From assembly GCA_015484715.1 (NCBI GenBank), contig WFUY01000440.1, positions 1 through 10,154 on the forward strand: 10,154 nucleotides of DNA, in the 5' to 3' direction. Source of the DNA: Thermoflexales bacterium. Lineage in GTDB: Bacteria; Chloroflexota; Anaerolineae; S140-20. Positions 2,124 to 8,802 of the stretch are shown here, one piece after another. The notes under the pieces are model-generated. The model saw only the letters and a list, made by a program, of their open reading frames with translations. It ran no database searches and was not told where the DNA came from. Each line of letters opens with the position of its first letter. Positions within the stretch are counted from its first letter, which is position 1. Position numbers and translations under genes: made by a program.

Positions 2124-2140
2124 AGGAACTTACAAAGAGC

Positions 2141-2316
2141 AACCCCGCTGTGCCGTGTGGAGCGCCGTTTTGAACCTGCTCTCGCAGGTGGGAACCTACC
2201 CGGTCGTTCTGCCTTGCCCTTGCGGGCTAGCGCATCCCGCCCGGGAAGCCGGTCCCCTTTGAAGTAGGTGTTGGCTCAAAACCGCAAAAGCGCCATCACG
2301 CACACAGCAGGGTTCA
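2141..2316 (-). ncRNA. ssrS: Structured RNA resembling 6S RNA
   Basis: A minus-strand transcript framed by a consensus promoter and an intrinsic terminator, with no open frame. The ends form a perfect 12-bp closing stem (2314-2303 with 2141-2152). The stem resumes with CGTG/CACG, GCGC/GCGC and a 10-bp helix, GUUUUGAGCC (2282-2273) with GGUUCAAAAC (2176-2167). A lopsided central bulge follows: few bases on the 5' side and, on the 3' side, a small hairpin CCUGC-GAGA-GCAGG (2188-2175) with a GNRA loop. That hairpin competes with the end of the 10-bp helix. A terminal arm begins with ACCUAC/GUAGGU (2269-2264 with 2199-2194) and includes GCCC-GCAA-GGGC. A size near 175 nt, one long bulged rod and a hairpin-forming 3' side of the bubble are the known plan of 6S RNA, which sequesters the housekeeping RNA polymerase holoenzyme. 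The family call rests on architecture only; tmRNA, RNase P and SRP signatures are absent. Confidence 0.62.
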
Positions 2317-5846: not shown

Positions 5847-5911
5847 CGGTCAACAAGGGTTCAACGGATCAACGGATTGTGGAGCACGATCCCCTCCTCA
5901 TTCGTTGACCG
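5847..5911. repeat. Degenerate TCAAC palindromic repeat between convergent genes
   Basis: CGGTCAAC (5847-5854) is perfectly inverted at 5904-5911 (GTTGACCG). The left arm holds TCAAC at 5850, 5861 and 5869, the last two inside overlapping TCAACGGAT copies. Their spacings, 11 then 8, are the same as in the CACGAAT palindrome at 2425. The right arm keeps only one unit (CATTCGTTGA), and it lies inside the last codons of the PIG-L gene (stop 5898-5900). No U-tract is present, so it is not a classical terminator, although it is the only structure between the two convergent genes. Confidence 0.5.
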
Positions 5912-6752
5912 GCTCGATCCCGGCGAAGAGGTCCGAAAGCCGCTGACCGGGGGTGGGGGCCGGCCAGGCCAGCTCGTAGTACTCCCGGCTCATCAGCCGC
6001 TTCATCTCCGCCTCGGGCAGGCGCCGGAAGAGGTGACCGGGACCGATCTGGGTGCGGTGGCAGTGGATGGCCGTCCACTTGGCCTCAACGACCCCTGCCA
6101 CGTCCAGCACCACGTGGACCTGTTCGTCGGACCACCCCCGCCGCCACTCCAGGATGCGGTCCAGGTCGTGGGTGTCCAGGCCCAGCGCAACCATCCGCTC
6201 CCGCATCCTCACGAAGACGGAGCGAGGGATGGCCGTGTAGAAGAGGCGGGCTGGCTGCCAGGGAGGGCCCTGGTCGGGGTAGCGGGCCGGATCGGCAGCG
6301 GCGCGGAAGGCGGCCACCGTGTGGCGGTGGATGGCAATGTGGTCCGGGTGGCCATACCCGCCGTTGGGCTCGAAGGTGATGACGACCTGGGGGCGCAGGC
6401 GGCGGATGATCCCCACCAGCCGCCGGACCACCTCGTCGGCGTCGGCGTTGACGAAGGCGCGGGGGTCCTCGTTGTCGGGACTCCCGGCCATTCCCGAATC
6501 TCGATACCCCAGGAAGATGAGGTCGGCGATGCCCAGGGCCTGGGCGGCGCAGCGGAGCTCCGCCTCCCGCACCGGGCCCAAGGTCTCCGGCGTCGCCAGC
6601 GCGGGGTCGGAGATCTCGCCGGCTTCCCCCCGGGTGGCGCAGACCAGGGCCACGCGCACCCCCTGCGCCGCGTAGTGGGCCAGGGTACCGCCGGTGCTGA
6701 AGGACTCATCGTCGGGATGGGCGAAGACGGCCAGCAAGGTAGAAGGGCTCAT
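5898..6752 (-). CDS. PIG-L family deacetylase, MshB/BshB-like
   Basis: A 284-aa zinc-dependent N-deacetylase. The start is ATG 6752, preceded by AGGAGAGG; the longer open frame to 6842 overlaps the thioredoxin gene and adds no family sequence. AHPDDE (His12, Asp14, Asp15) opens the protein, and NGGYGHPDHIAIH (His135, His138, His142) gives the remaining active-site residues. The second motif is close to that of MshB and Mca, which act in mycothiol metabolism, and BshB of bacillithiol synthesis has the same core. Other family members deacetylate different N-acetyl-sugar conjugates, so the substrate is uncertain. The ATG begins one base after the thioredoxin stop, so it is the last gene of a DUF2892-thioredoxin-deacetylase set. 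The C-terminal codons overlap a palindromic repeat. Confidence 0.9.
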   Translation of the reverse strand: MSPSTLLAVFAHPDDESFSTGGTLAHYAAQGVRVALVCATRGEAGEISDPALATPETLGPVREAELRCAAQALGIADLIFLGYRDSGMAGSPDNEDPRAFVNADADEVVRRLVGIIRRLRPQVVITFEPNGGYGHPDHIAIHRHTVAAFRAAADPARYPDQGPPWQPARLFYTAIPRSVFVRMRERMVALGLDTHDLDRILEWRRGWSDEQVHVVLDVAGVVEAKWTAIHCHRTQIGPGHLFRRLPEAEMKRLMSREYYELAWPAPTPGQRLSDLFAGIEPVNE

Positions 6753-6753
6753 C

Positions 6754-7275
6754 TCACCTCTCCTGGCGGAGGGCAGTGACCAGCCGGGGCACGATGGCCC
6801 GCCACAGGGGGCAGCGGTCGTAGACACCGCTGAAGAGCACAATCCCCCCGATGACCAGCAGGGCGGGGGAAGGACCGCCCAGCCAGCCCAGGACCAGGAG
6901 CGCCCCTCCCGCCAGCAGCCGTAGGGTGCGGTCGGTGGCCATCAGGCGGGGATGGGCCAGGCCCTGGCCGGAGAGAGCCACCTCGAAGAGCTCGGTCAGG
7001 GCTTTCTCCGACAGGGCACCGGTGCGGCGGGCGATCTCCTCTCCTCGGCGGAAGCTGATAAGGGTGGGCACGCCGTACACCCCCAAGGCGCGGACCAGCT
7101 CCGGCTCCTCATCGGCGTTCACCCGCCACAGGTCCACCCGACCGGCGTAGCGCTCCGCCAGCCGGTCCAGGGCCGGCTCGATGGTTCGACAGGGGACGCA
7201 CCAGGGTGCCCAGACGTCCACCACGACGGGACGCTCGTGGTGGTGCAGGCGTTCGAGAAAGGGAGTCCGTGACAT
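6754..7275 (-). CDS. Thioredoxin domain fused to a DUF2892 membrane domain
   Basis: A 173-aa two-domain protein. Residues 1-105 are a thioredoxin fold: VVVDVWAPWCVPC gives the redox pair Cys26/Cys29 (CVPC instead of the usual CGPC), and GVYGVPTL supplies the cis-proline 70. Residues 115-160 are a YgaP-like DUF2892 segment with two hydrophobic helices (about 117-133 and 137-152) ending in DRCPLW (Cys155). There is no signal peptide, so the thioredoxin part probably faces the cytosol and is anchored to the inner membrane. It may reduce disulfides near the membrane or exchange with Cys155. The start is ATG 7275, with AAGGA upstream; a GTG/ATG-initiated extension to 7332 lacks family similarity. 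It sits 209 bp after the DUF2892 gene and 1 bp before the deacetylase start. Confidence 0.9.
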   Translation of the reverse strand: MSRTPFLERLHHHERPVVVDVWAPWCVPCRTIEPALDRLAERYAGRVDLWRVNADEEPELVRALGVYGVPTLISFRRGEEIARRTGALSEKALTELFEVALSGQGLAHPRLMATDRTLRLLAGGALLVLGWLGGPSPALLVIGGIVLFSGVYDRCPLWRAIVPRLVTALRQER

Positions 7276-7442
7276 CGCCTCGTCCTTCGCCTCTCTGAAC
7301 CTGTAACGGAGAGGGGCGGATGGGAGATCCACCCGCCCCTAGCCAGGGCTCTCGGACTTGCTAAAGCGCTCGGCCTTCCCAGGCTCTCGGCGGATTCGCG
7401 GCCCATCAGGGCTGCCGGACCACACCTCCGACGGGAGCAGAG

Positions 7443-7474
7443 GGGGCGGGGCGGATCCGCAATCCGCCGGCCCC
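7443..7474 (-). other. GC-rich hairpin after the DUF2892 gene
   Basis: GGGGC (7443-7447) pairs with GCCCC (7470-7474), and GGCGGAT (7450-7456) with ATCCGCC (7462-7468), giving a 12-bp bulged stem 11 bases past the DUF2892 stop. No T-run follows on the minus strand. A second short stem, AGGGGCGG/CCGCCCCT (7312-7340), lies nearer the thioredoxin start. They may stabilise or partly attenuate the transcript between the two genes rather than end it. Confidence 0.35.
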
Positions 7475-7484
7475 GTTAGGTCCA

Positions 7485-7688
7485 TCAGGCTTTCTTGGTG
7501 CTGAACCTGAGCAGGTGGTAGAGGGGGCACCAGCCGACCAAGCCGGTGATCAGAGGGATGAAGCCGATGATTTTAAGGGCAAGGCCCAACCCTCCGGTGA
7601 CCACGCCTCCCCACCCCAGGTAGAGCAGGATGATTCCCAGCACCACCCGAACGATCCGGTCCCATCCTGCTTCGTTGATGAAGCCCAT
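7485..7688 (-). CDS. Small DUF2892 (YgaP-like) inner-membrane protein
   Basis: A 67-aa protein made almost wholly of two membrane helices (about 12-30 and 34-52). It opens with WDRIVRVVLGIILLYLGW and closes with GWCPLY (Cys54), the family's conserved CPL motif. DUF2892 also forms the membrane part of E. coli YgaP, there joined to a rhodanese domain. The ATG at 7688 is chosen over upstream starts because AAGGAGG lies 9 bases before it. The next gene carries the same domain fused to thioredoxin, with the same CPL cysteine, so the two may pair in the membrane. An ECF-type promoter lies about 50-80 bases upstream. The function is unproven; the context suggests a thiol or sulfur-transfer role. Confidence 0.85.
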   Translation of the reverse strand: MGFINEAGWDRIVRVVLGIILLYLGWGGVVTGGLGLALKIIGFIPLITGLVGWCPLYHLLRFSTKKA

Positions 7689-7736
7689 CGCTTGTTCCCT
7701 CCTTTCCAGCATTGCGGGTTTTCCGAACATCTACCC

Positions 7737-7766
7737 TTTAGACGCGAAAGGGGGCGAAAAGTTACA
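7737..7766 (-). promoter_or_regulatory. ECF-sigma promoter of the DUF2892-thioredoxin-deacetylase set
   Basis: On the minus strand TGTAAC (7766-7761) is followed by exactly 16 bases and CGTCTAAA (7744-7737). The AAC core of the -35 and CGTC of the -10 are the hallmarks of ECF sigma promoters. The element differs by one base from the promoter in front of the sigma gene and has the same spacing. The expected start is near 7731, leaving about 43 nt before the ATG at 7688. Confidence 0.7.
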
Positions 7767-7769
7767 GGG

Positions 7770-7915
7770 AGTCCGCAGTCCTGAGTCCTCAGTCCGCAGT
7801 CCTCCCGGCCCTTGGTGCCTGCTCCTTGGTTGGGTGGTCAGGTGGTCGCTTGGTCGGGTGGTCCTTGGTCCTCAGTCCTGAGTCCGCCGCCAGGCCGCTA
7901 GGCCGCTAGGCCGCT
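7770..7915. repeat. Degenerate 7/8-bp tandem repeat tract
   Basis: The tract opens with five head-to-tail 7-bp units of the form AGTCCNN (7770-7804). After a diverged stretch come four 8-bp units of the type GGTGGTCN (7833-7864), three 7-bp units ending GTCC (7865-7885) and three perfect copies of AGGCCGCT (7892-7915). The last copies supply the TAG stop of the anti-sigma gene (7906-7908). The left end is 3 bp from the ECF promoter's -35 element. The tract fills the gap between the anti-sigma gene and the promoter of the next gene and holds no open frame of its own. Confidence 0.7.
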
Positions 7916-8169
7916 TGATCGGCGGTCGTCCCAGTGCCGCTCCCCTGGAAAGCCTCCTGCAAGCGCCGGAAGAGCCGGCCTCGCCGCTCGGCGGGGATGG
8001 CCCGACGGCCGGTACGACGGTAGAGGAAGATCATCTGCTGGGTCGTGTCCAGCACCACCCGACAGTTGCGACAGGTGGCCAGGTGCTCCTGGGCATCGGC
8101 CCGCAGTTCCTCGTCCAACTCCCGGTCAATGTAGTCTGACAGATAGCGGATTAGCTCCTCACAGTTCAT
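7906..8169 (-). CDS. Zinc anti-sigma factor (zf-HC2/ZAS domain)
   Basis: An 87-aa soluble protein with a ZAS zinc site: Cys3, then His29-x3-Cys33-x2-Cys36 in EHLATCRNC, with the Cys3-to-His29 spacing of 26 that RsrA also has. The second half (LDTTQQMIFLYRRTGRRAIPAERRGRLFRRL) is a basic helix that in this family packs on sigma region 4. There is no membrane helix, so it should bind its sigma factor in the cytosol. Its ATG overlaps the sigma TGA (ATGA), which ensures coupled, near-equal synthesis. Cysteine ligands allow redox sensing as in RsrA, but many ZAS proteins with the same ligands are not redox sensors. The last codons run into a short-period tandem repeat. Confidence 0.88.
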   Translation of the reverse strand: MNCEELIRYLSDYIDRELDEELRADAQEHLATCRNCRVVLDTTQQMIFLYRRTGRRAIPAERRGRLFRRLQEAFQGSGTGTTADQAA

Positions 8170-8759
8170 CGTCCTTGACCTCCGGGAGGGCCGGCGAAGA
8201 GAAGGGCCAGCCGTTCCCGCAAGGCGAGCCGGGCGCGGTGCAAGCGGACCTTGACCGCGCCCGGTGAGATTCCCAGCACCTGGGCCGTCTCGGCGGTGGA
8301 GAGTCCCTCGATGTCCCGCAGGACGAAGACGGCGCGCAGGCTTTCCGATAGCGCTTGGATCGCCTCGTCCAGGGCGGCCCGCGCCTCGGCATCAATGAGG
8401 ATCTCCTCAGGGGTGCGCCATTCCACCAATACTTGGGGCAGCGGCACCGCGCCGGTCTCCTCGGTCTCCCGGTCGTCGGAGGGTAGGGCGCTCTCCCCCT
8501 GACGACGCAGACGGTCTATGCTGGCGTTGTAGGCCACCCGGTAGAGCCAGGTGCTCAGACGGGAACGGCCCTCGAACCGGTCGAGGTGGGTCAGCGCCTT
8601 CAGGAAGGTCTCCTGGACCACGTCCTCGGCCTCGTCGGGGTTGCGCAGCAAGCCCAGGGCCAGCCGGTAGAGGCGGTCGGCGTAGGCGTCGAAGAGCGCG
8701 GCCAGGGCGCTCGCATCGCCGGCCCGCAGCGCCTGCAGGATGGCAGCGTCGTCAGCCAT
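8166..8759 (-). CDS. ECF-type RNA polymerase sigma factor
   Basis: A 197-aa sigma-70 family protein with only regions 2 and 4. Region 2 (about 23-88) contains LYRLALGLLRNPDEAEDVVQETFLKAL and STWLYRVAYNASIDRLRR. A variable acidic linker follows (90-125). Region 4 (about 128-185) has LPS-like helices and the helix-turn-helix LSTAETAQVLGISPGAVKVRLHRAR, which reads the -35 element. It directs RNA polymerase to a small stress regulon and is held inactive by the overlapping anti-sigma gene. An ECF-type promoter sits just upstream, implying autoregulation. The expected transcript start leaves a leader of only about 10 nt, with GAGAGAGGG as the ribosome site. The gene lies 61 bp after the Lgt-like gene. 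Confidence 0.95.
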   Translation of the reverse strand: MADDAAILQALRAGDASALAALFDAYADRLYRLALGLLRNPDEAEDVVQETFLKALTHLDRFEGRSRLSTWLYRVAYNASIDRLRRQGESALPSDDRETEETGAVPLPQVLVEWRTPEEILIDAEARAALDEAIQALSESLRAVFVLRDIEGLSTAETAQVLGISPGAVKVRLHRARLALRERLALLFAGPPGGQGR

Positions 8760-8773
8760 AACCCTCTCTCTGG

Positions 8774-8802
8774 TTAGACGGGCGAGGTGGGCAGAGGTTT
8801 CA
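8774..8802 (-). promoter_or_regulatory. ECF-sigma promoter of the sigma/anti-sigma pair
   Basis: On the minus strand TGAAAC (8802-8797), exactly 16 bases, then CGTCTAA (8780-8774). This is the TGAAAC/CGTC form known for SigW/SigX-type ECF promoters. It lies in the 61-bp gap between the Lgt-like gene and the sigma gene, with the expected start near 8768. The match to the element at 7737-7766 supports recognition by the sigma factor it precedes. Confidence 0.7.

Follow-up and report, generated by a model that had tools for sequence, protein, structure and literature searches.

The window analyzed here, the complete contig 440 (10,154 nt) of a Thermoflexales draft genome, probably encodes an autoregulated switch for thiol stress in Anaerolineae, built from an ECF sigma factor and a zinc-binding anti-sigma factor; we estimate the probability of this reading at about 0.78. 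The core, constant predicted target of the sigma factor is a gene for a small DUF2892 membrane protein, which carries the matching promoter in the relatives more constantly than the sigma gene itself, and this is the strongest result of the comparison. The draft genome comprises 3.0 Mb in 588 contigs and is 70.55% complete. The closest sigma proteins among named records are from Anaerolineae/Chloroflexi metagenome genomes, by which we assign the window to class Anaerolineae of Chloroflexota. The comparison is based on 28 loci (group A), i.e., the window and L014-L040. The features of the window are as follows.

8774..8802, minus strand: ECF promoter of the sigma/anti-sigma operon, TGAAAC-N16-CGTCTAA (exact string; equivalent in 17 of 28 group-A loci, window counted)
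8166..8759, minus strand: ECF sigma factor, 197 aa, sigma2 and sigma4 domains, Asp at residue 82 (Pfam/NCBIfam)
7906..8169, minus strand: CHCC zinc-binding anti-sigma factor, 87 aa, C3/H29/C33/C36 (zf-HC2, E 1.5e-10)
7738..7766, minus strand: second promoter of the same type, TGTAAC-N16-CGTCTAA, 5' of the DUF2892 gene (exact string; motif at 18 of 18 stand-alone group-A DUF2892 genes, window counted)
7485..7691, minus strand: small membrane protein, DUF2892 / YgaP-like_TM (Pfam PF11127, E 2.4e-18; start picked by RBS)
6754..7275, minus strand: fusion of a thioredoxin domain and a YgaP-like_TM domain, without a motif of its own (Pfam)
5898..6752, minus strand: PIG-L deacetylase, MshB-like but below the MshB cut-off (Pfam/NCBIfam)
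2138-2316, minus strand: 6S RNA, full length (Rfam RF00013, 84.0 bits vs. a gathering threshold of 46.4)

The family search bore out the gene identities named in the preliminary description (ECF sigma factor, zf-HC2 anti-sigma factor, DUF2892, thioredoxin-DUF2892 fusion and PIG-L) and also identified an Lgt-like gene upstream of the sigma gene on the same strand. Short repeat-like words (GGACTGAGGACTC, CCACCTGACCACC type) were seen by eye on the minus strand at approximately 7770-7900, after the anti-sigma stop and ahead of the second promoter.

Sigma factor and anti-sigma factor

The sigma factor consists of sigma2 and sigma4 domains only (Sigma70_r2, 76.9 bits; Sigma70_r4_2, 68.6 bits; both above cut-off) and scores 120.6 against a cut-off of 42.9 with the sigma70-ECF superfamily model, which makes it an ECF (group 4) sigma factor. 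It scored below the cut-offs of SigH_actino (TIGR02947; 90.3 of 251.55 bits), of the SigW equivalog models (140.4 of 209 and 135.3 of 243.1 bits) and of its best NCBIfam match, NF008888 (182.3 of 204).

A zinc anti-sigma factor (ZAS) was defined by the motif HxxxCxxC with a Cys or His 23-26 residues upstream, in a gene adjoining that of an ECF sigma factor. The protein encoded beside the sigma gene, with C3-x25-H29xxxC33xxC36 and a zf-HC2 score above cut-off, is of this kind; the translation contains all four residues of the zinc site previously proposed (Cys3, His29, Cys33 and Cys36). Of the 28 group-A loci compared, 27 retain C-x25-HxxxCxxC; no anti-sigma factor was found at L038. Since the window protein remained below the cut-off of the RsrA equivalog (TIGR03988; 38.2 of 62.5 bits), it is RsrA-like in anatomy, yet not filed as RsrA. 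Work on RsrA reports that the N-terminal ligand has to be a cysteine for oxidation to cause release and that CHCC is the redox-competent type, RslA being discussed as a reported HHCC exception (PMC4960319). A survey associates 72% of Chloroflexi ECFs with class I anti-sigma factors (PMC7406223), which makes pairs of this kind common in the phylum.

The pair might instead represent an envelope-stress system of the SigW/RsiW or RpoE/RseA type that includes redox genes incidentally. The best solved-structure match of the sigma factor by sequence is indeed SigW (E 5.7e-32), SigW models are among its best NCBIfam matches and the HxxxCxxC motif of the anti-sigma factor aligns with that of RsiW (E 0.015). 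The window promoter resembles Bacillus ECF promoters as well. However, the anti-sigma factor is 87 aa long, lacks a membrane segment as judged by eye and belongs to the CHCC rather than the HHCC type, the SigW equivalog cut-off was missed (140.4 of 209), and the targets described below are thiol genes; we regard an envelope-stress system as improbable.

Promoter sites in the window and in its genome

Both promoter strings were confirmed exactly on the minus strand, TGAAAC-N16-CGTCTAA at 8802-8774 and TGTAAC-N16-CGTCTAA at 7766-7738. The distance from the end of the -10 element to the ATG is 14 nt for the sigma gene (8759) and 46 nt for the DUF2892 gene (7691), whose ATG is preceded by an RBS. 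TGNAAC-N16-CGTC matches the window twice, whereas shuffles expect 0.05 matches and none of 200 reached two. The absence of a third copy, also claimed earlier, holds for exact copies in the window; a weaker GTAAC-N15-CGTC is located at 2570 (minus strand).

Regarding the draft genome as a whole (3.0 Mb, 70% complete), exact GWAAC-N16-CGTCTAA occurs in two copies, both in the window. The genome-wide scan proposed in the preliminary description yielded chance frequencies in this genome, with 28 sites for the loose motif vs. 32 for the reversed control, i.e., background level, and with 8 vs. 7 sites for GWAAC-N16-CGTCTAA with one mismatch, which is thus not over-represented. Motif abundance in this genome therefore proves nothing, and the evidence rests on the relatives. 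The six one-mismatch sites outside the window are situated 5' of a glutaredoxin gene followed by GroES (C140, a CATC site), as a tandem 5' of genes for a DsbD_TM/CcdA-like protein and a TlpA-like thioredoxin (C241, where a CATC site and a CGTC-like site are 33 nt apart) and 5' of an RpoD-type sigma gene (C104). Two others were set aside, one 11 nt 5' of a 220-aa ORF (C36) and one 5' of a 391-aa ORF that is Cas6-like by eye (C162).

Conservation of both promoters

Among the group-A rows, 26 form one clade (SH-aLRT 97); a second tree placed L038 next to the window, and neither tree included the fragment L040. A sigma promoter was called at a score of at least 10 of 13 and a shuffle p of at most 0.025, the shuffles for both promoter tests preserving base content only, not dinucleotides. 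By this measure, a site resembling TGTAAC-N16/17-C[GA]TCTAA precedes the sigma start in 17 of the 28 loci, in keeping with the autoregulation predicted earlier. Regarding the 11 loci without a clear sigma promoter, ten score 9 of 13 or less, some of them because the DNA upstream appears to be coding as far as the sigma gene; L022 scores 10 with a shuffle p of 0.08.

Of the 28 loci, 18 have a stand-alone DUF2892 gene recognized by protein similarity, and all 18 genes are preceded by the motif with N16 at scores of 11-13 of 13, which agrees with the earlier proposal that the second promoter leads into DUF2892; no DUF2892 gene was found in the other 10 loci within the piece compared. Because four of the five DUF2892 queries came from the compared loci, the search was repeated with the window protein alone, and the motif was then found before 16 of 16 DUF2892 genes. 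One further match is the YgaP-like domain in the thioredoxin fusion of the window, which has no motif of its own. Four further DUF2892 genes that had been obtained through the motif were left out of the 18/18 count.

In G040, and likewise in L016 and L037, both promoters have CATC in place of CGTC. An unusual -10 element is common to the two promoters of L018 (CGTCAAA) and, likewise, to those of L019 (CGTCATA). The two promoters of L028 differ (CGTCCAA and CGTCTAA), and the DUF2892 promoter of L015 has CGTC, though its sigma factor falls in the CATC subclade. The genome with the closest sigma relative, G031, has the sigma site only and no exact DUF2892 site.

The preliminary description had asked for the conservation of both promoters in relatives, and these counts supply it; they indicate that both predicted sites of the window are real ECF promoters. 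A chance likeness of two promoter-like strings would fit the background-level counts of the loose and one-mismatch motifs (8 vs. 7) in the window's own genome, but this explanation is already refuted by the conservation in relatives (18 of 18 stand-alone DUF2892 genes and 17 of 28 sigma genes), together with the spacer controls given below, and its probability is negligible.

Motif counts and targets in related genomes

GTAAC-N16-CGTCWAA was found at 35 sites in 12 of 16 sigma-bearing genomes, the four genomes without it being those with CATC at the sigma gene. In the same 12 genomes, the same halves occur at 8 sites with N20 and at 84 sites over the ten spacers N21-30, i.e., 8.4 each (Poisson 6e-12 for 35). 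The first downstream gene encodes the sigma factor at 10 of the 35 sites, DUF2892 at 8, Lon at 2 (in the close relatives G043 and G044) and OsmC at 1; these four kinds of gene follow 21 of 35 N16 sites vs. 0 of 8 N20 sites, and sigma and DUF2892 alone account for 18 of 35 vs. 0 of 8 (p 0.013). The redox query set for the target count was chosen after some of the sites had been seen, and because the 16 genomes were picked for the motif at the sigma locus, their 10 sigma sites are not independent evidence. The automated count left 14 of the 35 sites without a target, and one more read by eye left 13, with 8.4 sites expected by chance. Sites at L118, L120 and L130 were considered as a conserved methyltransferase/transsulfuration target and rejected, because an antisense gene seems to begin in this DNA.

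In 19 genomes of the same class without a sigma match at E<=1e-30, the pattern was found at 0 sites (reversed control, 27), compared with 35 sites in the 16 sigma genomes (reversed control, 50); base composition differs between the two sets, so the absence is supportive rather than final.

Of 22 loci, three have thioredoxin directly after DUF2892 (the window, L020 and L114), and another three have rhodanese after it (L033, L036 and L135). A SigR-like regulon was taken to be a thioredoxin system plus protein quality control under the promoter of the sigma factor; by sequence comparison, the candidate members are thioredoxin at these three loci and Lon in G043 and G044, with thioredoxin reductase (TrxB) and glutaredoxin-GroES found only under the CATC promoters of related pairs. 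A gene for a PEMT/ICMT-like methyltransferase follows the anti-sigma gene in L113 (Pfam) as well as in L107 and L132 (by eye), and one follows DUF2892 in L040.

The same circuit could respond to reactive sulfur (persulfide or polysulfide) or to cyanide/thiocyanate rather than to disulfide stress. The most constant target, DUF2892, corresponds to the membrane part of the sulfurtransferase YgaP, whose transmembrane domain has been tied to sulfane-sulfur transfer, with SCN export hypothesised, in PMC4730233. Besides the three loci named above, rhodanese is encoded second on a transcript divergent from the sigma gene, where the site in G042 (L107) leads into a lipoprotein gene first, and it has a CATC promoter in L176. 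The Lon and OsmC targets, like the Grx-GroES and TrxB genes of the related pairs, fit general thiol or protein damage equally well, and we hold a reactive-sulfur signal to be a tentative alternative, credible without being favored.

The paralogous pair, CATC promoters and residue 82

The genome of the window contains a paralogous ECF sigma / zinc anti-sigma pair (G000:C578; L013, L156) with 55% identity and a weak GCATCTAA -10 candidate upstream. CATC promoters were searched in 11 genomes whose best sigma matches lie outside the group-A clade; in the second tree, eight such rows group with one another, opposite group A. GTAAC-N16/17-CATCHAA was found at 29 sites in 7 of the 11 genomes, compared with 56 sites over ten other spacers, i.e., 11.2 expected for two. 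Sigma or thiol genes follow 13 of the 29 sites vs. 1 of the 30 control sites examined (of 56), and this one control success is a true site seen via an overlapping match. The targets include thioredoxin reductase (L161, TIGR01292 above cut-off), PDO (L171, TIGR02187 above cut-off), glutaredoxin followed by a GroES-like gene (GroES by eye), OsmC, rhodanese (L176) and DUF2892. Besides the TrxB, Grx-GroES, OsmC and PDO genes (L161, L178, L186 and others), DUF302, ferritin-like and aconitase genes were also noted with CATC promoters. These sites before thiol genes in relatives make a wider thiol response in the class likely. The Grx-GroES order of C140 recurs in G015, and the CATC sites suggest that the C140 and C241 genes may belong to the regulon of the paralog.

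Residue 82 of the sigma factor, which lies within the helix where ECF sigma factors read the -10 element, is Asp in 14 of 16 CGTC rows (exceptions L038 and L015) and in 0 of 17 CATC rows (Fisher 1.5e-7). This count leaves out L005, L006, L010, L012, L022 and L027, which have no promoter class, and the fragment L040, and L008, L011 and L013 were assigned to CATC at low motif scores (9 of 13, shuffle p 0.17-0.22). Since the pattern reflects only two to three independent changes (sign test p=1), the link between Asp82 and the -10 element is kept as a hypothesis only.

It is conceivable, if doubtful, that the paralogous sigma factor reads the window sites as well, or is even their main reader, and that the two pairs form one overlapping network. 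The paralog has its own zinc anti-sigma factor and 55% identity, and one-mismatch CATC sites precede Grx-GroES (C140) and CcdA-TlpA (C241) in the same genome, with CATC and CGTC-like sites side by side at the latter. The second base of the -10 element and residue 82 nevertheless separate the two groups, though with the three weakly assigned CATC rows and the few independent changes just mentioned.

Thioredoxin, PIG-L and the mycothiol question

DUF2892 and the thioredoxin gene are separated by a gap of 210 nt; the intergenic stretch 7272-7490 (minus strand) has a long stable RNA fold (-111.7 kcal/mol, z -2.7), and no terminator or sigma-70 promoter was called between the two genes. PIG-L starts 1 nt after the thioredoxin stop. 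Thioredoxin and PIG-L are probably transcribed by read-through from the second promoter via DUF2892.

The link to mycothiol drawn in the preliminary description was not supported. PIG-L scored just below the cut-off of the MshB model (220.6 vs. 224.35 bits), none of 60 genomes had an MshC match above cut-off (the genome of the window being 70% complete), and PIG-L near DUF2892 was found in 1 of 22 loci, namely the window itself, in downstream stretches of 323-3500 nt. The best match to the MshC model in the window's own genome lies in a 561-aa frame that was read as cysteinyl-tRNA synthetase and rejected. BshC (bacillithiol) was not found in this incomplete genome and is present in 2 of 31 genomes. 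Matches to the MshC model of 369-404 bits, below the cut-off of 485.1 and above the best match of most other genomes, were observed at L152-L155 (G048, G028, G052 and G013); these genomes have two or three matches to the model, and MshC-like ligases are possible in some Anaerolineae.

Proposed circuit

Comparison of the genomes establishes the conservation of the promoters, the identity of the predicted targets and their co-occurrence with the sigma factor. In the proposed circuit, the small CHCC anti-sigma factor would hold the sigma factor under reducing conditions, and oxidation or persulfidation of Cys3 with Cys33/Cys36 would, by analogy with RsrA, release zinc and the sigma factor. The free sigma factor would then transcribe its own operon from 8802-8774 and the DUF2892 gene from 7766-7738, probably together with thioredoxin-DUF2892 and PIG-L. 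In relatives, the same promoter would also serve Lon and OsmC genes as well as those DUF2892 genes that are followed by thioredoxin or rhodanese. We infer both the inducing signal and a protective role of the products.

The preliminary description had proposed a SigR-equivalent thiol module in another phylum. The thiol regulon of this proposal is supported by comparison (DUF2892, in some genomes with thioredoxin or rhodanese after it, Lon and OsmC; TrxB, Grx-GroES, OsmC and PDO under related pairs), the mycothiol part is not. A putative SigR-like thiol response in Chloroflexota that is not SigR/RsrA by family models or promoter is well supported by the comparison of genes and promoters.

A more elaborate scheme is unlikely as a whole. 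It envisages a two-branch thiol network of Chloroflexota with two ECF/zinc anti-sigma pairs per cell, split by one -10 base that would be read by residue 82 (Asp or not), CGTC serving DUF2892-thioredoxin-rhodanese-Lon and CATC serving TrxB-glutaredoxin-GroES-OsmC; the branch of the window would sense reactive sulfur via the three-cysteine zinc site, without mycothiol.

Comparison with known systems

The switch is of an ordinary type (ECF/ZAS), but its setting is new; by comparison, its promoter code is conserved and its predicted thiol/sulfur regulon coherent. No paper on such a Chloroflexota system was among the literature matches listed, and earlier automatic promoter predictions for the group are possible; the literature basis further includes PMC8103513 and PMC7533328. 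The analysis provides a predicted thiol/sulfur stress regulator and a promoter code with testable targets for a large, mostly uncultured phylum, adds a further case of an ECF/zinc anti-sigma pair apparently governing thiol defense and assigns DUF2892, a membrane protein about which little is understood, to a stress regulon. ECF promoter specificity might be studied in a natural experiment, the replacement of G by A in the -10 element, which tracks sigma lineage and residue 82.

SigR-RsrA of Streptomyces and SigH-RshA of Corynebacterium and Mycobacterium likewise combine an autoregulated ECF sigma factor with a small single-domain CHCC zinc anti-sigma factor, and their targets include thioredoxin and protein quality control according to PMC5472188 and PMC4960319. 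As in SigR/SigH, one-mismatch sites in the genome of the window precede Grx-GroES, CcdA and an RpoD-type sigma gene, the first two being CATC sites that may be the paralog's. The SigR promoter, given as GGGAAT-N16-GGTTG in PMC3489674, differs from GTAAC-N16-CGTCTAA found here. Unlike in SigR-RsrA and SigH-RshA, the cut-offs of SigH_actino and RsrA were not reached, the core target is DUF2892, and no mycothiol pathway was found.

SigW of B. subtilis is the nearest solved sigma structure by sequence, and the zinc motif HxxxCxxC of RsiW, which is membrane-anchored, aligns with that of the window protein. RsiW is of the HHCC type and, in PMC4960319, is reported not to sense disulfide stress, whereas the anti-sigma factor of the window is CHCC with no membrane segment by eye. 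The membrane sulfurtransferase YgaP shares its membrane domain with the core target, DUF2892 being Pfam YgaP-like_TM. Unlike in YgaP, this domain both stands alone and is fused to thioredoxin, not to rhodanese, in the window, and rhodanese is encoded by a separate gene in the relatives.
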